Source: Spinacia oleracea (Eukaryota; Streptophyta; Magnoliopsida; Caryophyllales; Amaranthaceae). Taken from it: a DNA stretch of 64,000 nucleotides. This document shows, piece after piece, positions 9,991-63,510 of the stretch (positions within the stretch are counted from its first letter, which is position 1; the number at the start of each line of letters is the position of its first letter). A model generated the notes under the pieces. That model did not search any database, was not told the origin of the DNA, and saw only the letters and a program-made list of their open reading frames with translations. Made by a program: the position numbers and the translations under genes. The DNA lies in the NCBI RefSeq assembly GCF_020520425.1, contig NC_079492.1, positions 139,008,361 through 139,072,360 of the forward strand. The letters run 5' to 3'.

Positions 9991-10533
<543 letters not shown>

Positions 10534-16600: not shown

Positions 16601-18543
16601 TTAGGATCCGGTGAGAAGTGCCTTTATAGAGAGAAACGTGAGAAGTAATTATATCCCTTAGATTAAATAATTCACGGTCAAGATCCTGTTTGAGTTTCCT
16701 TTTTAGTTTTCGCGTCATCCTCTTCTTTCTCCCAACTTTCAGTGAGTTCAACTGCTTGATTCCAATGGCGACGAGGATAGAAGTCCCACAGTTAATCGAA
16801 TTAATTAACTTCCCTCTCTCTCCTCCCACACTATTTCTCATTTACTCGTTTCTCCGCTCCATTTATCTCTCCTCATGAACCAGTCATCCATGTCTGCGAT
16901 TTATCACACTGTAACCGTCAACATTCCCACGAAACTCGATCAGTTCAATCTCTTAATTAACACAGCTCAAAATCAGTAGAGATAGAAATACCACGTATTA
17001 GGATTAATTTGGTGGATCGAGTTTTTAAATTAGATTAAATTAATTGAGGAAATATGATGTACATTAAGCGTGTATTGAGATACATCAGTAATATACTAGA
17101 GGTACATTAATGGTGTATTTGAGATACATCAGTAATATACTAGAGGTACATTAATAGTGTATTTGAGATACATCAATCAAAAAACATCAACAATGTGAAA
17201 GACATACATCGGTAATATACTAGAGGTACATCAATGATTATTAATAGTTTTTTCCTCAAAATTAACCATAACTGCATTTTAAGAACTAATTTTACTTCAC
17301 CTTTGTTCACCAAACTTTCTAATTTTTACTGAAGTTTACTATGTAATTCAATAAAAACCAGTAACTTCAAAAGCAAAAACACGAGAACTCGGTAAAAAAA
17401 GGTTTATCACTAAATATAAATGTAGTTCATCAAAAATCAAGTGAATGGAGCAAGGTCTTGGCCCACACTAGTTTAGTTCGATAGAATGCATGTCTGTAAA
17501 ACCCAATTGTGGCCCTTGTGTAATTTTCTTTAAAATATTGTCGAGGGGTTTGGTTGACATAAAAAAAATGACAAGAAATATAAAAATCTTAAAAAGCGAG
17601 ATAATATTGATTAGCTTGATTGGTAAAACAGGAACAATCACAATCTTTAAGAATAGAGAGATATGGTTGCCCCTCTTGAAATATCTAGATCCTCAATTTC
17701 TTATACACGGTAAAATTTCTTATTGGAAGTTCCATCTCCTAAATTCAACCTAAAATCATAAGAGAGAGATGGGGTCTTTTTTTTTACTAATGGAAAAAAT
17801 GAAAAATGATGAGTGAGAAAGTGGGTAGAGAGAGGGGAATGGTGATTTTTTTTACACAAGGTTAACGATAGTCTAAGGGAAAAATAGGAAATTGTCTCTA
17901 TGGTACCATGAAATATGGATAAATTGTAAGAAAATGACCTTAAATTTTAATAATATCTACGAGATACCCTAAGGGGAAAAAAAACCTAATTTCCCAATAC
18001 ATTTTACAGTTTTTACTTTGTACACTTATTTTGTTTTCATTAAATTTATGACCCCATTTTTTGGATTATCTTCTAAGTTGAATGGATCCTTGATCGGAAA
18101 GGGAAAAGTCGATTGGGCCCCAGTAATAGTATTTCAATTACTAATAGGGAATCTTGAACTTTAAATGCATGGGCCAGGGTGGTGAATAAAAACGAAGTAG
18201 TACTAATCAGATTATATAATTACAAAGGCTTTACTTGGGCCGGCGATGGGGCCGCAATCAACGTCAAAAGCCAAGGCGTTTACTCGTTTACTATCGTGCT
18301 CCTGCGCTCTAGACAATCAAAATCTTTCACGACACGGTCAAATTTAAAAGGAAGCTTAAAATCGAGCTACATGTTTTTTGCTTTAAATATTCTTTTTTAT
18401 TTCCAAAATATAAATCTTACAAAAGATAACGCGCTAGTGTCGCGAAATTGTAGGGCGTCACTTGTTGATTCAATTTTTGTGCAATTGTCAAAACTGCCCT
18501 CTATAATATCCGAAGTGTTAGAATACAACCTTTCTTTATTTAA
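16599..18543. other. Intergenic, AT-rich, with one tandem repeat
   Basis: No convincing gene. Reading frames at 17490-17753 and 18179-18592 have no recognisable domain. A tandem repeat occupies about 17055-17236. The end of the region carries the target duplication of the Mutator-type element that starts at 18544. Confidence 0.45.
17055..17236 (+). repeat. Tandem repeat with ~50-70 bp unit
   Basis: The motif GATACATCAGTAATATACTA followed by GAGGTACATTAATG-type sequence occurs three times, with a partial fourth copy at the left. The copies differ by small substitutions and spacing changes. Confidence 0.8.
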
Positions 18544-18656
18544 GGATTTTTTGTCATTTAATACCTTAAAAAAACTAGTTTTTGTAATTTAACACCTTAC
18601 TTATTTTTTATTGTTTTTAAACACCTTAAAAAACAAAAAAAATATAGAAATCAACA

Positions 18657-19963
18657 TGTTGACCCTAAAGTTTTGATGATGACAAAGCAAACTCCTGACA
18701 ATTGGTTAAGTTATGTTGCATAATAGGTTCCGAGATCCTTAGAGGGATAATGCTAAGTTAAGGAGATCCTGAGTTGGATAAACTAAGCAACGTGGAATAT
18801 AAGCAAGTAATTGATCCATGTCAGACACTACATTGAAGAAATAATCATTAAGCAAGGCGAGATCCTTAGGCGAGTTCCTAAGGCGAGATCCTCATATATT
18901 ATGTGGATCCTCGATGTTCCAGAGAAGGAACAAATTGGGAAGTCTTCGAGTGAAGCTTCTAAAGGTGCAACATGAAGACTACAACATATGAGTTTATGTT
19001 TAGGATTTATGTAAGTATTTAATATTGTTTATGCGTAATTTGGAACGAAAGGAACCTAAGTATTTTGGTACGTTTTAAATGAAATATGTTAACTGTAATT
19101 ATAAAAGAGTTTTAACTTGGAAAATCTTTTTAATAAATAAAATGAATTTAATTAATAAATGAAACATAGGATTCTGATTTATTATCCTTGTTTCTCAAGT
19201 AAAAGATTTTCCATGTTCCTTGAAACTCTCCCCACGTATTTCTGTTTAACGTACATTTAGTGTTTTGATTTGGTCTCCCTTGTTTCTCTCCAACTATGCC
19301 CATGTTACTGAGCAGTAACTGTTAGTGGGTAGTTGAGGAGAACATGGGTACCCAACCCTAAGTAAAACTCTCCTATAAAAGGAGAAGAGTTTTGGCTTTT
19401 CAAAACACAACTGATTTCTACAAAATCTATCTTAAAGAGCTTAAACGTTTTAAAAGAATCAGTTGGCAAAATAGAGTGTTCCTTGAGTTCCTTATTACTA
19501 TAAGCTTTATTACGTAATAGAATCTATCTATCATATTGTATTTTGGGTTTAAGGATTGAGTGATCCTTGAGTGACTTAGAGTTAAGTCAAAGAGAGAAAG
19601 AGCGACTAAGAGTTTAGTCAAAGAGAGAAACAGTGACTTAGAGTTAAGTCAAAGAGAAAAGGAGCGACTTAGAGTTAAGTCAGAGAGAGAAAGAGTAGCA
19701 CAGTAATCGAAGGGGATTGCTGTGGGGAACTCGTGTTCGAGAGGAACTCGAGTTAAAGAGTGTATTTGTAATAGAGTTATTGCATTAATACAAAAGAGTA
19801 GTGAGGTTCTTCTTGATTAGGGTCAAGAAGGTTCCTCCGTTTTATATCTTTCTTCGCTCATTGTTCTCAGTCTCTTTATTGTTTAAATTCCGCAAGAAAC
19901 TTACTCAAGTTCCCAAGAAACAATTCACCCCCCCTCTTGTCAAGTGTTCCTACTGAACTATCA
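18657..19963 (+). repeat. 5' LTR of the Sirevirus-like element
   Basis: 1,307 bp, TGTTGACCC...ACTATCA, with TATAAAA at 19374-19380 inside a CTCCTATAAAAGGAG palindrome as the likely promoter. A run of repeats based on GACTTAGAGTTAAGTCAAAG lies at about 19570-19690. The short minus-strand frame at 19427-19621 is present identically in the other LTR and is not a gene. Confidence 0.95.
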
Positions 19964-19964
19964 G

Positions 19965-19977
19965 TTGGTATCAGAGC
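19965..19977 (+). other. Primer-binding site (initiator tRNA-Met type) of the Sirevirus-like element
   Basis: TTGGTATCAGAGC begins two bases after the 5' LTR end, the standard copia primer-binding site complementary to the 3' end of initiator tRNA-Met. Confidence 0.85.
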
Positions 19978-20029
19978 AGGATCTCACAAAAATACAGGAA
20001 ACCCTGTTGAGAAAAAGTTCCTGGAAAGT

Positions 20030-21150
20030 ATGAACGCTTACGAGAAACTCGAGGAAGGTTATTCCACTCAAAGACCTCCAATGTTCAACGGGAAATTCTA
20101 CACCTACTGGAAGAACAGGATGGAGATCTATATCAAGGCAGAGAACTATCAAGTCTGGCGAGTCATAGAAGTCGGTGATTTCAAGGTAACAATGACCAAT
20201 GCTCAAAATGAGGTAGTTCCTAAACCCATGTCTGAATTTACTAAGGAAGATTTTGAGAAATTAGAAATCAATGCAATGGCTGTGAAAATCTTGCATTGCG
20301 GCCTTGGACCTCACGAACATAACAGAGTTATGGGGTGCAAGAGCGCAAAGCAAATCTGGGATCTCCTTCAAATAACTCATGAGGGAACTAATGAGGTCAA
20401 ACGTTCTAAAATTGATTTATTAATGTCTAAGTATGAACGTTTTGAAATGCAACCAAGAGAAACAATCCAGGAAATGTTTACTCGTTTCACTAACATTACT
20501 AATGAGCTAGTTTCTCTTGGAAGAATTATTCCCTCTGATGAACAGGTTAGGAAGATCCTAAGGAGCATGCCACAGGATGATAGATGGAGAACCAAGGTCA
20601 CTGCATTGTTTGAAACAAAGGACTTCACCAAATTCAACATTGAACAATTGGCGGGATCCTTGATGACTCATGAATTACATCTAGGAGCAGCTGTTCCTGA
20701 GAACCGAGGCCTTGCTCTCAAGGCTGAGGAACAGGAGGACTCATAACCTGATGAAGATGAGGTTGCTACGTTGGTCAGAAGAATGAAAAGATTTTACAGG
20801 AACTCTAAACCTGGAAATCTAAGAGGAAGGAACTCAATGAGAAAACCAAGCGGTTCCAAGTCTGACCAAGGATGTTTCAAGTGCGGTGATTCTGACCATC
20901 AAATCAAATACTGCCCTCAGTGGGAAATGAAAAAGGGAAAGGCAAGGGAAAGGATCAATATAAGGAAAGATTCAACAAATCCACCTTTGCCAAGCCCAAC
21001 TTCAAGAAGGCAATGATCGAAGCTTGGGAAGAAGCCACTGACTCGGAAGAAGATGAGGATCAACCAGAAGAAACAGCAAACCTTTGTCTTATGGCAAAGA
21101 TCGATGAATCAACACAAGATCCATCAAGTGAAGTAAGTTCCTCAACTCTT
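20030..21150 (+). pseudogene. Sirevirus-like gag with one internal stop and one frameshift
   Basis: The start is the ATG at 20030 (MNAYEKLEEGYSTQRPPMF). The frame runs as a UBN2-type gag: YWKNRMEIYIKAENYQVW, then a long helical region, to a single TAA at 20744-20746. The same frame then continues to a zinc knuckle CFKCGDSDHQIKYC (C-x2-C-x4-H-x4-C) at about 20874-20915. Shortly after, between about 20920 and 20950, a frameshift moves the typical acidic C-terminus (FKKAMIEAWEEATDSEEDED, ANLCLMA) into another frame. Gag packages the RNA in the virus-like particle. One stop plus one indel in an otherwise clean frame is little decay, consistent with a young copy or with a defective lineage carried by helpers. 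Confidence 0.85.
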
Positions 21151-22359
21151 CAATCTCTGTCTGTAAATAAATTAGTGGAATTATTGATAGAAACTCTAGA
21201 CATTTTTAAAAAGCTTATCGTAATAAAGGCTCAAAGTGACAAGGCAATGGAACTTAGCAAAGAACACACAACCTGCCTCGATAATGTTAAATCTGATGTA
21301 CATGGTAGGTTCTTTCAGTTGCCTGACAGGAACACCTCTCTTAAAGACTCTTTTAAAAGTGTTGAAAATGTACATATTATGCTTGATGAAACTAATGAAG
21401 TTCAGGAACAGAAGGATTTCGAAAATGGTTTGATTCACTTCACAGATAACAATGAGGAAACTTCTCCAGCTAGACAACATAAAGAGACAGTTGAATCAGG
21501 AGTTCAAGAAATCAAAGTGAATCAGGGAGTTCCTACTCAAGAGGAACAAGATCTTAGAGTTCATGATCCAGAAGTTCCTGTTCCTGAGGATCACCCTATT
21601 ATTCAACAGGAACAAGGAACTCGAGGATCTCAAGGAACTCAAGAAACAGAAGTAACTGAGGAAAGTTTGAATATTCATGTGGCTCAATCTCAACCTAAGC
21701 CATGGAAACATCAGAGTTCCTCTCCAATGGATCTGATCGTCAGCGACATTGAAAGAGGAATTGTGACAAGATCTGAACTCAGGAACTTTTGTACTTTCCA
21801 TGCGTTCCTCTCCATAATCAAGCCAAATAACCAGAAGGGGATAGAACTCAAATGGATGTACAGGATCAAGCTTGATAAATGTGGAACAATGGTCAGGAAC
21901 AGAGCAAGGTTAGTTGTTAAAGGCTACAATCAACAGAAAGGTACTAATTTCGAAGAAACTTTTGTTCCTGTTGTTAGATTAGAAACTATAAAAACTTTAA
22001 TTGTTTTTGCAGCCTTTACAGAAATTAAGTTGTACCACATGGACGTCAAACGTGTCTCCATAAATGAATTTTTTAAAAAGGACGTCTGTGTGGAACAACC
22101 TCCCCATTATAAAAATCATGAATTTTCAAATCACATCTATAAGCCTGACAAAGCTCTCCATGGGTTAAAGCAAGTTACAAGATCGTGGTGCGAAATATTA
22201 TCTAAAATCCTTCTGAAAAATGATTTTAAACGAAGCAGATATGACAAAACTTTATTCTTAAAATCAAAAGGAACTGACTCACTAGTTGTACAATTTTACG
22301 TTGATAATATACTGTTTGGTACAACTAATGAAAATTTGTGCAAGGAACATGCAAAGTAA
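21150..22359 (+). pseudogene. Gag tail fused to a truncated copia reverse transcriptase
   Basis: The frame that carries the gag C-terminus stays open through a Glu/Gln/Thr-rich segment (about 21480-21700). It enters the N-terminal half of reverse transcriptase without any protease or integrase: WMYRIKLDKCGTMVRNRARL at 21853, GTNFEETFVPVVRLETIKT, HMDVKRV with the first catalytic Asp, LHGLKQVTRSWCEIL, and FYVDNILFG at about 22297. The catalytic YVDD is YVDN here, so one metal-binding Asp is lost. The frame stops at 22357-22359 before the thumb and RNase H. A deletion from the end of gag into pol explains the fusion. Confidence 0.88.
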
Positions 22360-24325
22360 ACAAGCAGAAAGAAGCACGGGAAAATGAGATTGGACCTCGG
22401 GATGATCAAGCTGAGATAAGTAAGCAGGAAAGTTCCTCACAAGGTATTACTTTTATAGATTTATGCATAACTACTATATACCATTATAAATACATGTGCG
22501 TGAAGCATAACTGAAGTTTACCATTGTTAAGGAACAACTAAAAGTTTAAAATTAAAATATGTATTTAATTAGTCAAGCAATATGAGATACGTAATTAAAA
22601 CAGTTCCACTAAAATAGGAGGATCATGGATATATTCTTTTTGTTACAATTTTCTTCCATCTTTTATTTTTTCCACAAATTATTTTTATTATTTTTATTTC
22701 TTTTTATATATCCATATTTTTATTTATTTTTTTTCATTGAATTTTATTTTTTTCAAAATTAAAAGCTAATGGATCACACCTATGGATCTCTCATACCCAA
22801 TTCCACCACCAAATTCAAATTTCACCAATTCAAACAAAAGAAACCCTAAAAATTAAAAATCCCCAAATTCAAACCCTAGCCATGAAAAAATTCCCAAATT
22901 GAAAACCACCACCACCATCACCGGCGGCCGGACCCAACAGGCCACGACCACCGGCGACCTCGGCTCGGCGACCGGACTCAACCCGGCCAACCGACCGAGC
23001 CCAGCCACTAGCCTCGAGCCCAGCCGCGAACCACCTCTCTTTCGCCCTTACTCCCAGCCACGACCCACCACCTCTTACCTCCACAAGAAACAGCGGCGGT
23101 GGCTCCTAATCACCGCCCTCCCAGCCGTCCGACACCGCCGTCATCGCCGAACCTCACACCCCCACTTTCGACACACAACCACCCAAAACCCTCCACCAAA
23201 ACCCGTCCACGACCACAACAACTTCTACCCTACCTACTGTTCTGGTCGCTGAGGATGAAAACGGGGCACACCACCGACCCGCGAAGAGAGCGGCGGTCGG
23301 GTGGTGAGATTATTGCAAAACCGAAAAAAAAAATAATAAAAAAAAAAAAAAAAAAAAAATACGGATTGTTCTAAGGGGGAAATTACCTCGGTCCGTGTTC
23401 CTTCGGTTGTTGATGCAAATATGGTGACGAGGTTTACAATTAATATTGAGGATTTATGGTTTATGTATTATTTTTAAAGGGATGCCGTTGTTATACCGGA
23501 AAAAAAAAAAAAAAAAAAAAAAAAAAATAGAAGAAGAAAAAAAAAAGAGTATGACAGGGTTCACAAAGTGGTTCCAAGGTGAAATATTCTCTGTTGTTTG
23601 TTGATATATCTTATGCTAATGAGAATAATGATGAAAAAGTGGGAGAATTAAAAGGCAGCAATAGAAATCGAGACAGGGTGTGGATCGATATGAAGTTGAG
23701 AAAGGACCAACCTAAACTTGCTACATACCCAAGCCATCTTTCCTGATCCTATCCATTTGTGTTACATTACGCTTTTGATTTTTTTTGGAACTTTTTATTT
23801 TATTTTTTTATTTTTTTTTGTATGTAACCATCTGTTGGGAAACATACAATTTCTCTTCCTTTATTTCTGTGGAACTCCTAAAAGATCGTATCTCTAAAAA
23901 CTTGGCTTGTTAATTATTATGTTTTATATTCGAATTTAGTACGTTGGAACTTAACTTTGAGGCTAACTTAGTTTGCCAACTGTTGATCGGAGGGCGCTAT
24001 AATCGGTATATATTAGTATTGTGTATTTCTACTTTTTGTTAATGCCAACAGGGGGAAATGAATGCAAACTTAACTTAAATTGATCACTTGAGTCCGTCTC
24101 ACTACTCTCTTCTCGATGTAAGTTTATAAAATTTTATTTCTCGTTCTTAATTTTATTTTCGTTTATTAAAATTAATTTCAATTTTCCTTAATTTCATTTA
24201 GGAAATTTAGATTAATTTTTATAAAAATACTTTATTTAATTTATTGCTTTATATTTATGCTAATTGATTATTATTGCATTTAGTGAAAGTTTGCTTATGT
24301 TGTCATCACCAAAAAGGGGGAATAT
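22360..24325 (+). other. Non-pol interior of the Sirevirus-like element with GC-rich and poly-A segments
   Basis: Between the RT remnant and the polypurine tract lie about 1.97 kb with no retroviral domain. A segment from about 22750 to 23360 has UTR-like CCCTAAAAATTAAAAATCCCC, then a GC-rich stretch full of ACC/CGG codons, then a run of A. A second poly-A lies at 23500-23527. The GC-rich part is open in two frames and on the other strand, a sign of composition rather than coding. It may be captured host or retro-inserted sequence. The final 270 bp carry the polypurine tracts. Confidence 0.5.
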
Positions 24326-25632
24326 TGTTGACCCTAAAGTTTTGATGATGACAAAGCAAACTCCTGACAATTGGTTAAGTTATGTTGCATAATAGGTTCC
24401 GAGATCCTTAGAGGGATAATGCTAAGTTAAGGAGATCCTGAGTTGGATAAACTAAGCAACGTGGAATATAAGCAAGTAATTGATCCATGTCAGACACTAC
24501 ATTGAAGAAATAATCATTAAGCAAGGCGAGATCCTTAGGCGAGTTCCTAAGGCGAGATCCTCATATATTATGTGGATCCTCGATGTTCCAGAGAAGGAAC
24601 AAATTGGGAAGTCTTCGAGTGAAGCTTCTAAAGGTGCAACATGAAGACTACAACATATGAGTTTATGTTTAGGATTTATGTAAGTATTTAATATTGTTTA
24701 TGCGTAATTTGGAACGAAAGGAACCTAAGTATTTTGGTACGTTTTAAATGAAATATGTTAACTGTAATTATAAAAGAGTTTTAACTTGGAAAATCTTTTT
24801 AATAAATAAAATGAATTTAATTAATAAATGAAACATAGGATTCTGATTTATTATCCTTGTTTCTCAAGTAAAAGATTTTCCATGTTCCTTGAAACTCTCC
24901 CCACGTATTTCTGTTTAACGTACATTTAGTGTTTTGATTTGGTCTCCCTTGTTTCTCTCCAACTATGCCCATGTTACTGAGCAGTAACTGTTAGTGGGTA
25001 GTTGAGGAGAACATGGGTACCCAACCCTAAGTAAAACTCTCCTATAAAAGGAGAAGAGTTTTGGCTTTTCAAAACACAACTGATTTCTACAAAATCTATC
25101 TTAAAGAGCTTAAACGTTTTAAAAGAATCAGTTGGCAAAATAGAGTGTTCCTTGAGTTCCTTATTACTATAAGCTTTATTACGTAATAGAATCTATCTAT
25201 CATATTGTATTTTGGGTTTAAGGATTGAGTGATCCTTGAGTGACTTAGAGTTAAGTCAAAGAGAGAAAGAGCGACTAAGAGTTTAGTCAAAGAGAGAAAC
25301 AGTGACTTAGAGTTAAGTCAAAGAGAAAATGAGCGACTTAGAGTTAAGTCAGAGAGAGAAAGAGTAGCACAGTAATCGAAGGGGATTGCTGTGGGGAACT
25401 CGTGTTCGAGAGGAACTCGAGTTAAAGAGTGTATTTGTAATAGAGTTATTGCATTAATACAAAAGAGTAGTGAGGTTCTTCTTGATTAGGGTCAAGAAGG
25501 TTCCTCCGTTTTATATCTTTCTTCGCTCATTGTTCTCAGTCTCTTTATTGTTTAAATTCCGCAAGAAACTTACTCAAGTTCCCAAGAAACAATTCACCCC
25601 CCCTCTTGTCAAGTGTTCCTACTGAACTATCA
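24326..25632 (+). repeat. 3' LTR of the Sirevirus-like element
   Basis: 1,307 bp, the same length as the 5' LTR, with one difference found by eye (T at 25330 versus G at 19661). It is followed by the CAACA target duplication. Confidence 0.95.
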
Positions 25633-25669
25633 CAACACCACTTGACAATTTTTGTTAGAAAAAACATTA

Positions 25670-25993
25670 CTCCCTCCGTATTTTTTTAAGAGATACACTT
25701 GGCCGGGCACGGGTATTAAGAAGAATAATTGAATGAAATAAAATAATGAAGCAAGTGGGGTTGGATAGATATTTTAATAATTAAACATGTGGGGACCATG
25801 TCATTTTGGTGGGTGGAAGGTGGGGTGGATTTATGAAATTATTTGTTTAATAGGATGGTGGGTGATAGGGTAAATTAGATGTATTATTTAATTAGATGGT
25901 GGGGTTGATAAGTTACTAAAAATGGCAAGTGTATCTCTTAAATAAATACGGCCGGAAAAGGCAAGTGTATCCCTTAAATAAATACGGAGGGAG
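25670..25993. mobile_element. Stowaway MITE with a duplicated right end
   Basis: Flanked by TA at 25668-25669 and 25994-25995. The left end is CTCCCTCCGTATTTTTTTAA and the right end is its near reverse complement. The subterminal motif AGTGTATCTCTTAAATAAAT next to ACGG occurs twice at the right (25926-25951 and 25966-25991), so the right end was tandemly duplicated and only the outer copy kept the full GAGGGAG terminus. Confidence 0.88.
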
Positions 25994-26797
25994 TAGTTTT
26001 TAACTATGCTAAAGTTCTCAAGCTATGATATGGTGGTAAACAACTCCTTCTACCATTAAATTATGCTAGCATGATTAAAAATCAACGTTTTTTTCTTATG
26101 GAAATCGTTAAGCGGTGTTGATTTATAAATTTTTAGATTTTTAAGGTGTTTAAATATAATAAAAAATAAGTAAGGTGTTTAATTACAAAAACTATTTTTT
26201 TTTAAGGTGTTAAATAACAAAAAATCCTTTATTTAATGAATGAATGAATTCCTTCTTCTCACCAATTGTTGTCATCGCTTTATTGCTCGTGTTTTGTTGT
26301 AACCTTTATAGATATTGTGTCATCACTTGCTCTAAAACATCCCAAATCCCACAAAGTCCCACAAACAGATAAATTATCGTCGTTGGTCCCGCTTGTGCCT
26401 GCTGTGCGCACACAAGAGCCCCGGTTGACCCTCGTCCCTTGCTCTTGTCGCCATTAGGCAAGAGAGCCCTATCAGATGCAGATGCTTACTCGTGCCCCTA
26501 CGAGTCACAAGACACTCATTCCGCACAAGGCTCGCATCCTTGCCGCCAATAGGCAAGAGTGCGCCACACGGTTTCGAAGTCAAAATATTCGGACTGTGAC
26601 ACGAAGGCTCCGCTCAATACTTCTAGTGTATACGGAGTACTGCAGTTGATAATCTTGATATTGCAGAGTATGGCCATGTCCTTCTAATATTAATTGGCTG
26701 AATTAAATTAAACTGAGCTGAACTGAACTGAATGGTGTTGAACTAAATTGAACTGAATTTAAATACAAAATGACAGGATCTTTTTGGAAAACTATTA

Positions 26798-35467: not shown

Positions 35468-47954
<12,487 letters not shown>

Positions 47955-55945: not shown

Positions 55946-56477
55946 GGGATGAATTAGTTAGTACTAAGCTAGCCCCTTCTAGAAGTTTATATAGGTAACC
56001 GTAAGACTTTACTTTGTTGTTTGGCTATGTTTTCAATAGGTACCACAAGCTAGAAAATATGAGAAGTTACAACAATAAGTAAGTGGTCTTATATTCACGC
56101 GATACATGGGAACATATATAAGAAAGAAAAATAACATTATGTAGAAAAAATTATTAGCAAGGTTTATCTAAAGAAAAGTAGACATCAAAATAATTAGGGG
56201 ATGAGTTTTATTATGTTTATTTGATTGAATATTTTTTTTAAAAAAAATAATTTAAAATATGATTTTTTATTTTATTTATTTTTGGTAGAGAGACCTTGAA
56301 AAAAATTAAAATATGATTTATTTATGACAATATCAAAATGTGGCATAATAAAATACTCCACTTGTTTTATAAAAAAAAATACTCCACTTGTAAGGAAAAG
56401 GTAAATCACAACAAATAATTAATTTTTTTTCTTAAAAAATATTATTTAATAGGGAATTGTCCATTGATTCCACAATA

Positions 56478-59400
56478 ACTTGGTCCTTCCTATGGACTTT
56501 GTTGTGACTAATGCAGATTGCACGAAGTGGAGGCTCACTGGAGTATATGGTCACCCTGAGGAGGAGATGAAAGTGCACACTTGGAGCCTGATGGAACAAC
56601 TAAAAGGGGATTGCTTTCTCCCATGGTTGTGTTTTGGTGACTTCAATTGCATATTGGCTCATAATGAAAAACAAGGGGGCGGCCCAAAAAAACAGCATGA
56701 AATCAATGGCTTCCGAAGCGCCGTTGACCACTGCCATCTTCGTGACATAAGGTACGAAGGCTACCCCTTTACATGGAGCAACAATAGAGTGGGTGATGAC
56801 AATGTACAGGAGAGATTGGACCGTTTTATGGCCTCGGACGAGTGGTGCTCACTTTTCCCGTGCACAATGGTGGAACATCTCCCACGTAGAAGATCTGATC
56901 ATGTCCCTATCAAGGTTGTTATCCAGAAACAACTCCAAGTGGGTGATCGGGACAAGAAAAGAAGACGAGCCTTCCGTTTTGAGAAAGAGTGGTTAAGAGA
57001 TGAAGGCTGTGGAGAAACGGTGATGGAAGCATGGAATGAGTGGCCACAAGGAAATGTCAAACAAAAGTTGGAATGGTGTGCGAACAGGTTGAGAGGATGG
57101 AGCTCCAAGAGGGCTAATGATTTTACAAAGGAAATAAAAAAGAGGAGAGAACATGTCAGGTACCTTATGACTCTTCCCGCAACGGCAGAAACTATTGCGG
57201 AGATTCATTCGGTAGATGCAGAGGTGGATGAGTTGGAAAGAAGAGAGGAAATTTATTGGGCTCAAAGAAGCAGACAAGATTGGCTCAAGGAGGGGGACAA
57301 AAACACAGCTTTCTTTCATAGAAAAGCCGACCAACGTCGACAAAGGAACACAATCAAAGGTGTTTTTGATGATGGAGGGATTTGGAGGGAAGTTGAGGAG
57401 GAAGCGGAAGCAGTTTTTGTCTCTTACTTTCAATCACTTTTTTCTACCAATAACAGTACTGATGAGGAGATGGCACAGGTCTTTGATGTTGTACAAGCGC
57501 GTGTGACGGACGACATGAACACGATGCTCACAGCAGCCTACACGAGGGATGAGGTAACTAAGGCTCTCAAACAAATGCACCCCTTGAAGGCTCCCGGGCC
57601 TGATGGAATGCCGGCATTGTTCTATAAGAAGTTCTGGCATGTCATAGGTGAAGAGGTAATACAACACATCCTCAACATTCTCAATAATGATGCCCCTAAT
57701 CACACTAATATTGTGCTCATTCCGAAGAAAAATACTTGTGAGTCTACTAAAGATTATCGTCCCATTAGTTTATGTAACGTCCTTTACAAACTAGTGTCGA
57801 AGATAATCTCTAATAGACTAAAGAGTGTGTTACCATTGGTTATCAGTGAAGCCCAAAGTGCCTTCGTCCCTGGAAGGTTGATTACGGATAATGTTTTGGT
57901 TGCCTATGAACTATTTCACTATCTCCGTAAGAAAAAGAAGGGGGTCACGGGTCACGGGTCACATGGCCATGAAGCTTGATATGAGTAAGGCGTACGACCG
58001 GGTGGAGTGGAGGTTTGTGGAAGGTATGATGCTGAAATTGGGGTTTGCGAGGAGTATGATTGATCTTGTTATGAAATGCATTACGTCTGTATCTTATTCG
58101 ATTCTCTATAATGGCTTCCCATCAAAGAAATTTAAGCCAAGTAGGGGGCTCCGTCAAGGGGATCCCATCTCCCCTTTCCTGTTCCTTATCTGTGCCGAAG
58201 GTCTCTCATCACTCTTGAAGGCGGCAGAATTGAAGAAAGCCGTCCATGGGGTTCGAATCAGTAGAAATGTGGTCCCAATTTCTCACTTATTCTTCGCGGA
58301 TGACACGCTGCTGTTCACTCGTGCCAATGAAACAGAAGCAGAGGCGGTAATGGATATTCTAATGCTCTATGAGGTGGCATCTGGGCAAAAAATTAACTTG
58401 GAAAAATCGGAGGTCTCTTTCAGCCAAAATGTTAGTGCTAATATGCAGGAAATGCTTCTATCGAAGTTGAATTTTAAGGCCGTGCTAGAGCACGAAAAAT
58501 ACCTTGGTCTGCCTACATACGTAGGTAGGTCCAAAAAGGTTGTTTTCCAGGTTATTCTTGATCGGGTGTGGAAGAAAGTGAAGGGGTGGAAGGAGAGATA
58601 TCTATCAAGAGCGGGAAGAGAAGTGTTGCTTAAATCGGTAGCCCAAGCTATACCCACTTATGCTATGCAATGTTTCAAACTCCCGGAGGGGTTGTTAAAC
58701 AATTTGAACTCCATATGCCGTAACTTTTGGTGGGGGCAACGGGAAAGTGAACATAAGTTGGCACTCATTAGTTGGGAAAAAATGTGCAGGTCCAAAGATG
58801 CTGGAGGAATTGGTCTTAGGGACCTTAGTGCTTTCAACAATGCGTTACTAGCTAAACAATGTTGGAGACTAGTAACTAACCCTAATTCCTTTGCTTCGTC
58901 GGTTCTTAAGGGGAAGTATTTTCCTCGCACAACACTCTGGGATGCAAAAGTCCCGCCTAATGCAAGCTACACTTGGAGATCGATTCTCTCAGCGCGCGAT
59001 CTCTTATGGCATGGGTCGAAATGGGTGATAGGTGATGGGAGGTCTGTACGTTTCTGGAAGGATAAATGGCTCACAGGGATTCCTGGTGGAAGAATTTACT
59101 CCCAGCCTAGATGCAGTGAGCAAGGAGAGGGCATGGTACATGAGTGGAGAAAGATGGATGAGAGTGGATGGAAGGAAAGTGAACTTGAAGCAATCTTAAC
59201 TATGGAAGAACTTGATGCAGTGAAGCGGGTTTATGTTGCGAATGCAAACCAACCTGATTTCTTGGCCTGGGACTACACCAAAAACGGCGAGTTCACTGTG
59301 AGGAGCGCTTACCATTTAGAGATGCAGAGAAGACATGGCGAGATTGGATGCTCCAGACCAGATCCGAAGGCTAACCTGTGGAAGATGATCTGGAAAGCAA

Positions 59401-60384
59401 AGGTTCCACAAAGAGTGAAGAACCTAGTATGGAGGGCGGTTAACAATGGGCTGCCCACTATGAGCACACTGGCAAGGAGGGGGCTGAAGGTCGATCCGAG
59501 ATGCCCACAGTGTGGTGAGGCTATGGAAACAACGACCCACATGGCTACTCAATGTAGTGAGAGTAAGTTGCTTTGGCTCCTCTCCCCTGCACGAACGGTG
59601 ATGGTAGAACCCATGGGTTCCTTTGCTGAGTGGTGTTTTGAAATGATTAAGAAATGCAGGATCGCACGTATGTGGGAAATTGTGATGATGCTAATTTGGC
59701 AAGCCTGGAACGTGAGAAACATGTGGACTTTTGAGAAGAAAAAAATGAATCCCCTACGAGCCTGTAACAAAAGCATGTTGCTGTTAGGCGAGTTCGAAGC
59801 AGCCATGGAGCGTGATCATCCTCCTGCGGATACCCCTGCGGATGGAGTTGATAGATGGCAACCCCCAAGAAGCTCCCTATACAGGCTAAATACTGACGCT
59901 GCGGTGGGAGAGGAAAGAATAGGCCTAGGCATGGTGGTGCGAGATGGTGTAGGGGATGTCATGATGACTGCAGGAATGAGTATCAACATACAATGCAGTG
60001 CTCTGAGAGCCGAGGCAGAAGCGGTTCAGTTTGGCTTGATATACTCATTTGATGCAGGCCTGCGACAGTTGGAGGTTGAGTCTGATTGCTCCCCGTTAGT
60101 GCAGCTGCTCAATAGGGAAAGGAAGGAACGCTCTACTACTCAAGTACTAGTCGAAGATATCCTAGCTTTGGCGTGTAAATTTGATTTTTGTGCTTTCCAT
60201 TTTGCTAAAAGATCTTGTAATAAGGTGGCACATTCAATTGCCAAGTGCTCTCTCCCCTTAGATGAGACCTTGGTTTGGATGGAAGATCACCCAACTGAAG
60301 TTCTTCCCCTTGTTATAGCTGACAAGGGTATCCCCATTGAATGAATTTTGATATCTTTCCCGTCAAAAAAAAAAAAAAAAAAAA
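56478..60384 (+). mobile_element. 5'-truncated L1-type LINE with RNase H and poly-A tail
   Basis: The element encodes, in order, the second half of an APE-type endonuclease, reverse transcriptase, a zinc-binding RT domain and RNase H. It ends in a 20-A tail at 60365-60384. The first half of the endonuclease and all of ORF1 are missing, as expected after incomplete reverse transcription. The exact 5' junction (placed near the start of similarity) and the target duplication could not be fixed. The coding region is largely intact apart from one frameshift. Confidence 0.92.
56480..60344 (+). pseudogene. LINE ORF2: endonuclease part, reverse transcriptase, zf-RVT, RNase H, one frameshift
   Basis: The first frame (to 57979) has the endonuclease motifs GDFNCIL and RRSDHVPI, then RT block KAPGPDGMPALFYKKFW, DYRPISLCNVLYK and [13 protein letters not shown]. 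It breaks at about 57942-57962, where GGGTCAC is present three times in tandem. The second frame carries on: [26 protein letters not shown], the catalytic [11 protein letters not shown] at about 58285, then a zinc domain [19 protein letters not shown] at about 59500, and RNase H with [20 protein letters not shown] and NKVAHS, ending at 60344. ORF2 nicks DNA and primes reverse transcription from the nick. The copy lacks the endonuclease N-terminus, so it is inactive even without the shift. Confidence 0.92.
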
Positions 60385-61020: not shown

Positions 61021-61470
61021 TGTTGGCTTATTGTGATTTGTGACTGTTTGGGCTCCCAATTGATTCTCAATTGGGCCACTAAGTCCAAAGCCCAATGGCT
61101 CTAAACAAACAGCATCAAACCCACCAATGGCTAGTCAGCCATCCATCAAGGCCCAAGGCCCAAAAGCAATAAATGACCTATGGGCATTTATTATGCAAAC
61201 ACTATAAATAGGCCGCCAAGGCTCACACCTCAAGGTACGTCCAATTTATCGCCTTAAGACTACTCTTCTAGAGAACTTCTCTCTAGAATCCGAGCATCGT
61301 TCTTACTTAGGCATCGGAGGGGCTTTCCTCGGAAACACCCCCGAGGCTAGTGACTTTGCTCTTGTGCAGGTGAATTCGGACTCTACTCATTCAAACAAGC
61401 AAGATCTTCAACACATACAAAAGGGCCTTCATTCGAAGCCCATTGTTTCCATCTTTACAACACCGGAACA
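61021..61470 (+). repeat. 5' LTR of the gypsy element
   Basis: About 450 bp, TGTTGGCTTA...CCGGAACA, with a TATA box ACTATAAATAGG at 61200-61211 and several GGCCCAA motifs before it. The right LTR is beyond the window, so the ends are inferred from TG/CA and primer-site position. Confidence 0.75.
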
Positions 61471-61531
61471 ATTTGGCGCCGTCTGTGGGGAAGAACACTA
61501 CAATTTGGCGCCGTCTGTGGGGAAGAACACT
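61468..61531 (+). repeat. Primer-binding site region duplicated in tandem (2 x 32 bp)
   Basis: ACAATTTGGCGCCGTCTGTG and the next 12 bases occur at 61468-61499 and again at 61500-61531 without a gap. Each copy holds a full TGGCGCCGTCTGTGGGGA site. Only the first is at the standard distance from the LTR end. Confidence 0.92.
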
Positions 61532-61572
61532 TCAAAGCCTTTGAAAGACATCAATCACCTCTTTCCGCGAAA

Positions 61573-63510
61573 ATGGTGAATGATGTTGTTAACAACAATG
61601 ACGACGATATGATGGTGCGGTCAGATTCAGAATCTGACCAAGAGGAACACCCTCAATCGATGGCGAGGTCACAGCCAAGCAGAGCTACGACCGCCACAAA
61701 TGCAGGACCTCCGATTCCAACTAGGGAAGAGCTCACTGCGGCCATGACCATCATGCAAAACTTCCTCTTCAATGAGAAGCAGCAAGGACTGGCAAATGAC
61801 CGCAGAGAAGAGAGGAGGACCAGGCGAAGGCTGAACGAGCCACCCAGTGCGGAAGTGTCTAGACCCGAACGAGAGCTCCTTCCCTTGACAGGTACACACT
61901 TGACGTCGAGGTGGATGGAAAGCACGTGGGACACCCAAAAAAGGGCACAACAGCAACCAGATTGGTTTGCGAGACCATCGCCTACTCCAACAGCTCTCCA
62001 AAGCGAATCGACTACTCGTAACACTCGGGTCCGAAGCTCGGTGCTCAGCAGGTTGAGGCCCTCGGTCCACTCAAGGTTAAGACCCTCGATCCATACGAGA
62101 CTCAGGGTGGGCGAGCCAAGCAGATCTGGCGAACGACCCGAAGTCAGTAGCCGAGAGAGAAGAAGAGACAGGAGGCATGATCGAACCCCTAGCCCCCATC
62201 GTACGCCCGAACGTTCTAATCACAGAACCTCGGCAAACGAAGGCATCAGGGCTAGACTCGGGAAAAGAATCATGACTCCCACGTCATCCCCTTTCTCGGA
62301 CGAGCTGATCATGGAAGAAATACCGAAGGTAAGACTGCCAGCGCACCTGACCTACAGCGGAATCACAGATCCGAGGGATCATGTCATCTCCTACGAGCAG
62401 CAAATGTTCTTGAGTCCCTACTCCGAAGCATGTTGGTGTAAATATTTCCCAACCACGCTAACCGGAGTGGCGGGAGAGTGGTTTAGATCGCTGCCGAAGG
62501 GATCGATCAAGAGCTGGAAAAAGCTAAAAAAGAGATTCTGCACACAGTTCGTGAGCAACAATCGCCCCGAGCGAACCACAGCAGAACTGACCTCAATCCA
62601 ACAAGAAAGAGACGAAAGTCTGAGAGAATTCATGGCCAGATTCATGAAGGAATCAACAAACATACCGAACTTGCAGCCAGACGTGGCCATCTTCGCCTTG
62701 AAGCACGCGCTCCAGGAAGGGAAGTTCCGTGACGAACTCTCAATGAAGAACCCCTCCAGAATAGCTGACGTGCTCCAAATGGCTGATGCGTTCATCAGAA
62801 CCAAAGAGTTTAACAAGGCCGCCGCAAGATTGAAGGGATCGTCGGATCCGAGAGACACAAAGAATACCCAGAGCAAGCCCGAGGGCAGCTCAAGGAAGGG
62901 GAAAGAGAAAGTAGGAGCTAGAGAGATGAGCCCGAAGAAAGACGGGAGAAGGGGTGAACTTCAACCCAAGTACACCAACTACACTCCACTAGCTCTGCCC
63001 CGAAAAGAGATATTTAGCCTCAACAGAAATGACGAAAAGTGGAAACTACCTAGGAAGCTCAAGTCCAACCCAGCTCGGAGAAACAAGAACAAATGGTGCG
63101 AGTTTCATGATGACTTCGGTCACCACACCGAGGAATGCAACTCGCTGAAAGACAACATTGAGGACCTCGTTCGCCGAGGCTACCTGAAACAGTACTTGTT
63201 AGACCGAAGGGAGGAAAAAGAAAAGGCCGCAAGCGGCAAACAACACGAGCAACCCCAGAAAAGGGTCTACGAAGCAACAGGGCACAAGAAGAATGACATC
63301 CTAGTGGTGTTCGGGGGACAGAAGTCTGGCCAGGCCAGCAAAAAACACCTAAGAGCCCTCTCCCATCGGGTCAACTTCAGCGCGGTGGGAGACAACCAGC
63401 CACACCCCCCGAACATGACCTTCACTGCTGATGATTGCTTCGGAGTCCAGTACAAACATGACGATCCTCTGGTCATTTCCATGGACCTCAATAACCACAA
63501 CGTACATTGA
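61573..63510 (+). CDS. Gypsy gag polyprotein, ended by a stop in front of the protease
   Basis: 645 residues from the ATG at 61573. The N-terminus is acidic, followed by an Arg/Ser-rich segment with a repeated SRLRPSxHxRLR unit (about residues 155-180). A Retrotrans_gag core follows: LPAHLTYSGITDPRDHV, TGVAGEWFRSLPKGSIKSW, RFCTQFV, QERDESLREFMARFMKES. Then comes a His-containing knuckle CEFHDDFGHHTEEC at about residue 513 and a basic C-terminus. It ends at a TGA (63508-63510) directly before a protease-like stretch in the same frame. Gag forms the particle and packages RNA. In related elements gag and pol are usually one frame, so the stop is probably a mutation. Confidence 0.9.
   Translation: MVNDVVNNNDDDMMVRSDSESDQEEHPQSMARSQPSRATTATNAGPPIPTREELTAAMTIMQNFLFNEKQQGLANDRREERRTRRRLNEPPSAEVSRPERELLPLTGTHLTSRWMESTWDTQKRAQQQPDWFARPSPTPTALQSESTTRNTRVRSSVLSRLRPSVHSRLRPSIHTRLRVGEPSRSGERPEVSSRERRRDRRHDRTPSPHRTPERSNHRTSANEGIRARLGKRIMTPTSSPFSDELIMEEIPKVRLPAHLTYSGITDPRDHVISYEQQMFLSPYSEACWCKYFPTTLTGVAGEWFRSLPKGSIKSWKKLKKRFCTQFVSNNRPERTTAELTSIQQERDESLREFMARFMKESTNIPNLQPDVAIFALKHALQEGKFRDELSMKNPSRIADVLQMADAFIRTKEFNKAAARLKGSSDPRDTKNTQSKPEGSSRKGKEKVGAREMSPKKDGRRGELQPKYTNYTPLALPRKEIFSLNRNDEKWKLPRKLKSNPARRNKNKWCEFHDDFGHHTEECNSLKDNIEDLVRRGYLKQYLLDRREEKEKAASGKQHEQPQKRVYEATGHKKNDILVVFGGQKSGQASKKHLRALSHRVNFSAVGDNQPHPPNMTFTADDCFGVQYKHDDPLVISMDLNNHNVH

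Follow-up and report, generated by a model that had tools for sequence, protein, structure and literature searches.

TR-GAG of Arabidopsis (AT5TE33540, ATCOPIA63) is described as an element with two long terminal repeats (LTRs), Gag as its main product and an incomplete pol, having a pol-bearing relative within its family and showing recent transposition (PMC8704663; this and the following descriptions are drawn from portions of the papers cited). For RLG_Quinta/RLG_Cereba of wheat centromeres, gag was reported to be kept while reverse transcriptase (RT) and integrase were lost, with cis signals of RLG_Quinta matching its autonomous partner and with recombinant mosaics (PMC11302176). The wheat element RLG_Sabrina_SA, named semi-autonomous, encodes Gag and neither RT nor integrase, and BARE2 of barley needs Gag in trans (both PMC9744471), while non-autonomous Athila elements of Arabidopsis are pol-less, with purifying selection on gag and recombination between lineages (PMC2410132). 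Here, we describe a retrotransposon at positions 18657–25632 of a 64-kb stretch (the window) on C6 of the 894,210,420-base Spinacia oleracea assembly (242 contigs). With high probability it belongs, as a young copy, to a Sirevirus family that encodes gag but is non-autonomous, and was moved by the enzymes of integrase-bearing members.

Structure of the Element

A base-by-base comparison of the two LTRs, 1,307 bp each, left one mismatch (19661 versus 25330), as a preliminary description of this DNA had reported, and the repeat shows no extension beyond either side of the 1,307-bp units. The perfect CAACA duplication given there was also recovered. At a rate of 1.3e-8, one difference in 1,307 bp corresponds to an age of about 29 thousand years (ky), with a Poisson 95% range (one event, hand calculation) of about 1–164 ky; the earlier estimate of tens of thousands of years holds, and the many LTR differences that would speak for an old insertion are not seen. 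The boundaries and noncoding signals are as follows:

18652..18656, no strand: target site duplication CAACA, 5' copy, directly outside the LTR end
18657..19963, + strand: 5' LTR, 1,307 bp, TG...CA, TATA-like CTATAAAAGGAG at 19373
19964..20029, + strand: leader, 66 nt, two differences (by eye) from one integrase-bearing relative
19969..19977, + strand: primer binding site (PBS) TATCAGAGC, the Sirevirus 9-mer (motif according to PMC2829016)
22913..23330, + strand: C-rich block, about 66% GC, with a similar block of hypervariable sequence in 31 of 31 copies
24311..24325, + strand: terminal polypurine tract (PPT) AAAAAGGGGGAATAT
24326..25632, + strand: 3' LTR, 1,307 bp, mismatch to the 5' LTR at 25330
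25633..25637, no strand: target site duplication CAACA, 3' copy, directly outside the LTR end

Sireviruses have been characterized by a PBS nonamer, a conserved CA/ATTGG junction, multiple PPTs, an inverted repeat and a C-run (PMC2829016, from the portion available to us). The window copy reveals CA/GTTGGTATCAGAGC at 19962, the only plus-strand match in the 64 kb, with the nonamer exact and one junction base off. AGGGGGA occurs three times, at 23374 and 24050 besides the terminal PPT, and three times as well in 11 of 13 relatives (two in L013, five in L021). An inverted repeat around the terminal PPT is present, by eye in its flanks, and a run of seven C lies about 29 bp before the LTR end, the Sirevirus average being given as 21 bp (PMC2829016). 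Judged by these noncoding signals, the element is a Sirevirus (SIRE, Ty1/copia) derivative; its coding matches are to RVT_2 and a copia-type gag.

Pfam profiles were run on three reading frames of the element. Retrotran_gag_2 was matched in the frame ending at 20743, a zinc knuckle in the frame 20747–21013 under the cut-off, and RVT_2, with profile positions 8–182 of 244, in the frame 20896–22356, while protease, integrase and RNase H gave no match in these three frames, in agreement with the preliminary description. The coding remnants and deletions are:

20030..20746, + strand: N-terminal part of gag (Retrotran_gag_2), closed early by an in-frame stop private to the window copy
20747..21016, + strand: continuation of gag with one CCHC zinc knuckle (below the Pfam cut-off), then a private frame change
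20896..22359, + strand: open frame of 487 codons in which the truncated RT follows the gag tail
21371..21396, + strand: deletion junction 1, gag end, protease and integrase lost (alignment to L036 and L043/L042)
21817..22344, + strand: truncated RT (RVT_2 8–182 of 244), preceded by a 35-codon in-frame loss
22297..22308, + strand: YVDN, against YVDD in both integrase-bearing relatives read
22346..22362, + strand: deletion junction 2, RT end and RNase H lost, the last RNase H codons left out of frame
22998..23758, + strand: deletion zone 3, where the env-like frame seen in the integrase-bearing relative is largely missing

The YVDN motif and the joining of the gag tail to RT had been recognized before; the single deletion held responsible for the latter had to be replaced by several, at least three of them large. 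Calculated by hand against one integrase-bearing copy on C1, about 1.76 kb were lost at junction 1, about 0.82 kb at junction 2 and about 1.2 kb net in the env-like region, in addition to the 105-bp in-frame loss ahead of RT.

Overlooked in the preliminary description, gag of the window copy is broken twice, by the stop at 20744–20746 and by a change of frame that falls between about 20896 and about 21016, so that this copy has no continuous gag–RT frame. Both lesions are absent from 29 of the 30 other copies compared, which are all those spanning them, as L016 lacks the stretch. Three changes within 19964–21483, including the stop, are private to the window copy (against 21 copies), and among its private LTR changes two are present in both LTRs and one in the 3' LTR only; the two shared by both LTRs therefore predate or accompany insertion. 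A rough hand reckoning on these few changes weakly suggests that each gag lesion is some four times likelier to have arisen before insertion than after it, in which case Gag, too, would have been supplied to this copy in trans.

A Family of Deletion Derivatives

Used as a genome query, the window LTR returned 1,033 first-look candidates, of which the best 40, those scored, showed 99–100%; the interior 22360–24310 returned 559, of which again the best 40 were scored. From 33 stretches fetched, L036, L037 and L039 were excluded, having no LTR pair within the stretch, and the remaining 30 together with the window copy form the set of 31 copies. In 26 of them the RT was readable as far as its end (the others being L013, L028, L029, L032 and L038; 13 copies were aligned), and all 26 reveal the identical stop point and DN instead of DD. 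As 25 of the 30 other copies share this RT end and DN with the window copy, the deletions predate its insertion, and the objection considered in the preliminary description, that they arose afterwards, does not apply. That the element inserted complete and was gutted later, the LTR identity being a coincidence of youth, is hardly credible: a single LTR difference cannot by itself order the events, but 25 of 30 other insertions (five unreadable), mostly with duplications of their own and young LTRs, show this very RT end, and the shared junctions refute it.

Seven of the 31 LTR pairs carry no substitution (L020 and L035 among them carry a gap) and 21 have two or fewer, with a maximum of 25 in L038, while an exact 5-bp target duplication flanks 24 copies. 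These seven pairs point to recent activity, in keeping with the earlier suggestion that the family may still be active. An older insertion with LTRs homogenized by gene conversion or intra-element recombination would also yield near-identical ends, and both the mosaic exchange common in the family (see below) and the appearance of L009 and L027 as tandem or recombined arrays would fit such a process. It would be needed at many sites, however: the seven pairs without substitution lie at different sites, six of them with exact duplications. The two private changes in both LTRs of the window copy are as expected if these were copied from a single RNA, though conversion could also produce them; we regard this explanation as improbable.

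L009 and L027, both without an exact 5-bp duplication, show PBS-like sequence directly after the second LTR, a layout as in tandem LTR-internal-LTR-internal arrays or recombinants, and a further internal copy lies 5.6 kb beyond L009. A single frame runs from the Gag start to the RT stop in 18 of the 31 copies; as L016 has an internal gag deletion, 17 remain. Three subfamilies differ in the number of codons (35, 24 and 1) lost, in frame, within or ahead of RT. The internal length is 3.7–5.0 kb in 30 copies and 7.3 kb in L021, because extra sequence adjoins the 5' LTR of the latter. This copy (C3:35353350-35363349), with no LTR differences, carries about 2.96 kb between its 5' LTR and PBS/gag, and the extra sequence itself begins with a divergent PBS region.

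The C-rich block, with 38–49% C over 300 bp within an AT-rich element, was seen in every copy. It differs even between the window copy and L009, which are otherwise 98.8–100% alike in the other eight segments compared, and no full-length match to the window version was found among the best 40 scored or the 31 copies. An integrase-bearing relative seems, by eye, to have a similar block just ahead of its env-like frame.

Integrase-Bearing Relatives

In L036, Pol_BBD, gag_pre-integrs, rve and SH3 domains lie on a frame of 449 codons; this copy also has a match to RVT_2, YVDD and, by eye, part of an RNase H-like sequence, its frames being interrupted. Its integrase DNA as a genome query gave 846 first-look candidates, the best 40 of which, L036 included, scored 96–100%. 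A second integrase-bearing copy, on C1, was read in pieces (L043, L042 and L044), and the comparison of cis signals and of helper age refers to this one copy. Its LTR is about 93% and its gag about 92% like the window copy; the two hardly differ in leader, PBS, the PPT/attachment stretch and the C-run close to the LTR end. By eye, its gag has a second CCHC-like motif missing in the derivatives (Pfam gives one knuckle). YVDD is present, together with an RNase H-like frame (by eye, no Pfam match) and an env-like frame with a match to Transposase_32 under the cut-off. Of relatives sharing LTR, PBS and PPT, as asked for in the preliminary description, this one copy was recovered, with interrupted frames. 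L037 and L039 were rejected as helper candidates, being nested or partial.

Angela elements are reported to dominate the Copia elements of spinach (PMC6337768 and PMC7840529, in the portions available), and a helper from such another Copia lineage rather than from the same Sirevirus family might be considered on that ground. The Sirevirus-type PBS, the multiple PPTs, the inverted repeat at the PPT and the C-run, all shared with the C1 copy, render this very unlikely.

Mosaic Genealogies

The window copy is 93–99% identical to subfamilies A and B in gag, only about 53–55% in the linker after gag, 74–88% in RT and 95–100% ahead of the 3' LTR, and L031 resembles it at 99.8% in RT and at 96% in the LTRs. 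In a comparison of nine derivatives and the two integrase-bearing copies, A and B are, just before RT, 97–98% like the integrase-bearing copies and subfamily C about 78%, while over the final 120 bp of RT all derivatives split from the integrase-bearing copies with a support of 100. We infer that these mosaics are due to frequent template switching between co-packaged RNAs, an idea also proposed for Quinta (PMC11302176, in the part available); the exchange fits co-packaging.

Codon Variation in gag and in the RT Remnant

The variant counts cover codon columns showing two states that differ by a single base, using only copies open in the piece; of columns with more states or larger changes, 21 were skipped in gag (all copies), four in RT of A/B, two in RT of C and 41 in RT over all copies. 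Gag variants common to at least two of 23 copies comprised 21 synonymous and 6 non-synonymous changes (omega 0.07), and those in a single copy 18 and 25 (omega 0.34). Shared RT variants amounted to 7 synonymous and 28 non-synonymous in A/B (14 copies, omega 1.00) and to 1 and 5 in C (12 copies, omega 1.26), the ratio of gag differing from that of A/B RT (Fisher p = 7.7e-6). For the tail between gag and RT, omega was 0.36 (24 copies), with 0.44 in A/B and 1.53 in C. On these counts, gag looks to be under strong constraint and the dead RT looks neutral within subfamilies; with gag constrained and the RT ratio differing, gag appears as the part kept by the family.

In the knuckle-tail piece, the synonymous divergence (dS) is 0.02–0.11 among derivatives versus 0.19–0.25 to the C1 copy, and against L036 it is 0.17–0.20 versus 0.05–0.11 among derivatives, which are in both comparisons closer to each other.

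Probable Mobilization in Trans

Shared deletions, young LTR pairs and integrase-bearing relatives, one of them with nearly the same cis signals, together support mobilization in trans, which we consider well supported. The family would have arisen by losing protease, integrase, RNase H, the gag end and the env-like region, while retaining LTR, PBS, leader, PPT and attachment ends as cis signals. Derivative RNAs may then be packaged in Gag particles, to which sibling copies with an open Gag frame would contribute Gag, and same-family integrase-bearing members would supply the enzymes for reverse transcription and integration; the window copy, its own gag being broken, probably relied on others for Gag as well. 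The same-family helper postulated in the preliminary description thereby gains candidates, one of them sharing PBS, leader and PPT, but not a young helper with open frames.

Several points weigh against this reading. Among the integrase-bearing copies read, none was both young and open in its frames, L036 and the C1 copy being interrupted, and the LTRs of the latter show 24 mismatches over 1,276 sites, a rate above that of 30 of the 31 derivatives (all except L038). The copies compared are best matches to the window copy, so that young and similar ones are over-represented. Two gag lesions set against one LTR difference are no proof that gag broke before insertion. Gag was counted in the 23 of 31 copies open through the knuckle, which biases toward constraint, and in a 182-codon gag piece dS is 0.10 among derivatives (two pairs) and 0.06–0.15 to the C1 copy, unlike in the knuckle-tail piece and against L036; given this overlap, gag may have been constrained in autonomous members and have reached the derivatives through recombination. 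Finally, shared RT variants over all 26 copies (27 synonymous, 46 non-synonymous, omega 0.42) and the RT ratio of 0.29–0.32 between C and A/B would each, taken alone, suggest constraint on RT.

This last point bears on the idea that the fusion of Gag to a dead RT has a job of its own, such as entering helper particles or competing with the Gag-Pol of the helper, and that selection maintains it. Besides the omega of 0.42, it could draw on the 17 copies in which a single frame stays open from Gag to the common stop of RT, and on the subfamily indels of 35, 24 and 1 codons all being in frame, although the latter is conditional on reading open copies. Within subfamilies, however, RT variants occur at a neutral ratio, and the low ratio between C and A/B is explained by 5' parts of RT stemming from lineages that split before RT was lost. 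Purifying selection on the dead RT was set aside, as the value of 0.29–0.32 mixes lineages while the ratio within subfamilies is about 1, and a selected function of the fusion is unlikely. A related proposal, to which we give a similarly small chance, is that the reading frame of the dead-RT extension is maintained for a non-catalytic reason while its amino acids drift, for example because the Gag-RT fusion is incorporated into helper particles or restrains the helper, or because the long open frame protects the RNA from nonsense-mediated decay. If true, long-frame, enzyme-dead satellites would represent a distinct strategy of helper exploitation.

Other Features of the Window

Inverted arms of about 115 bp (18542–18656 and 26116–26229), 88.8% alike, enclose the retrotransposon, and its CAACA site lies at the inner edge of the left arm. 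The pair resembles a miniature inverted-repeat transposable element that has long terminal inverted repeats and was interrupted by the insertion. A second, nested inverted-repeat element at 25662–26001 has 40-nt arms and the ends ACTCCCTCCGT and ACGGAGGGAGT; by its motif, we take it to be Stowaway-like. Further features of the window are:

9991..10533, + strand: probable host gene for a fusion of ubiquitin with ribosomal protein S27a
38256..43185, - strand: another Copia element with LTR-like ends of about 290 bp (95%) and a 482-aa RVT_2 frame
56468..60344, + strand: frames like those of long interspersed nuclear elements, with RVT_1, zf-RVT and RVT_3
61354..63510, + strand: frame of 718 aa carrying a Retrotrans_gag domain, a probable Gypsy element extending past the window

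Comparison with Known Systems

Lacking protease, integrase, RNase H and a complete RT, the element differs from an autonomous LTR retrotransposon, and, with no intact pol enzymes, also from the BARE2 type. At the family level, the LTR pair, PBS, PPT and gag frame of TR-GAG are present (17 of the 31 copies are open through Gag, knuckle and RT), whereas the window copy itself has an interrupted gag. A single Gag-only open reading frame free of pol domains is not found, as the frame enters the RVT_2 remnant. The family works like TR-GAG, yet is not a strict TR-GAG because of this RT remnant.

With TR-GAG the spinach family shares the features named at the outset, from the two LTRs to recent transposition (PMC8704663). 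In contrast, spinach Gag continues in frame into the remnant of a dead RT, the family is a Sirevirus with hundreds of candidate copies, and its transposition is read from sequence instead of being observed directly. With RLG_Quinta it has in common the retained gag, the lost enzymes, the matching cis signals and the mosaics, but RLG_Quinta is a Gypsy element targeted to centromeres, with an extra domain of unknown function and, in the portion of the description available, no RT remnant (PMC11302176). RLG_Sabrina_SA, alike in encoding Gag without RT or integrase, is likewise Gypsy and has Gag-protease in place of Gag-dead RT (PMC9744471). BARE2 depends on Gag from elsewhere, and so, probably, does the window copy; BARE2 keeps its other genes, however, while the spinach family is without enzymes and lost gag in individual copies only (PMC9744471).

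The spinach family also resembles non-autonomous Athila elements in its constrained gag and its exchange between lineages. Athila belongs to Gypsy. Its non-autonomous members differ in carrying gag or gag and env and, as far as the portion available goes, no pol sequences (PMC2410132).

No earlier description of the spinach family was found in the open-licence literature, as judged by titles and the openings of abstracts. Here, an enzyme-less, gag-keeping family and its integrase-bearing relatives are found in one genome, with recent insertions and a visible exchange of parts. Spinach offers a good assembly and numerous resequenced accessions, in which the dependence in trans can be tested. 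The C-rich block, being hypervariable, and the long frame joining Gag to the dead RT are of specialist interest, and the family adds a Sirevirus case to the published Gypsy and Arabidopsis Copia examples.

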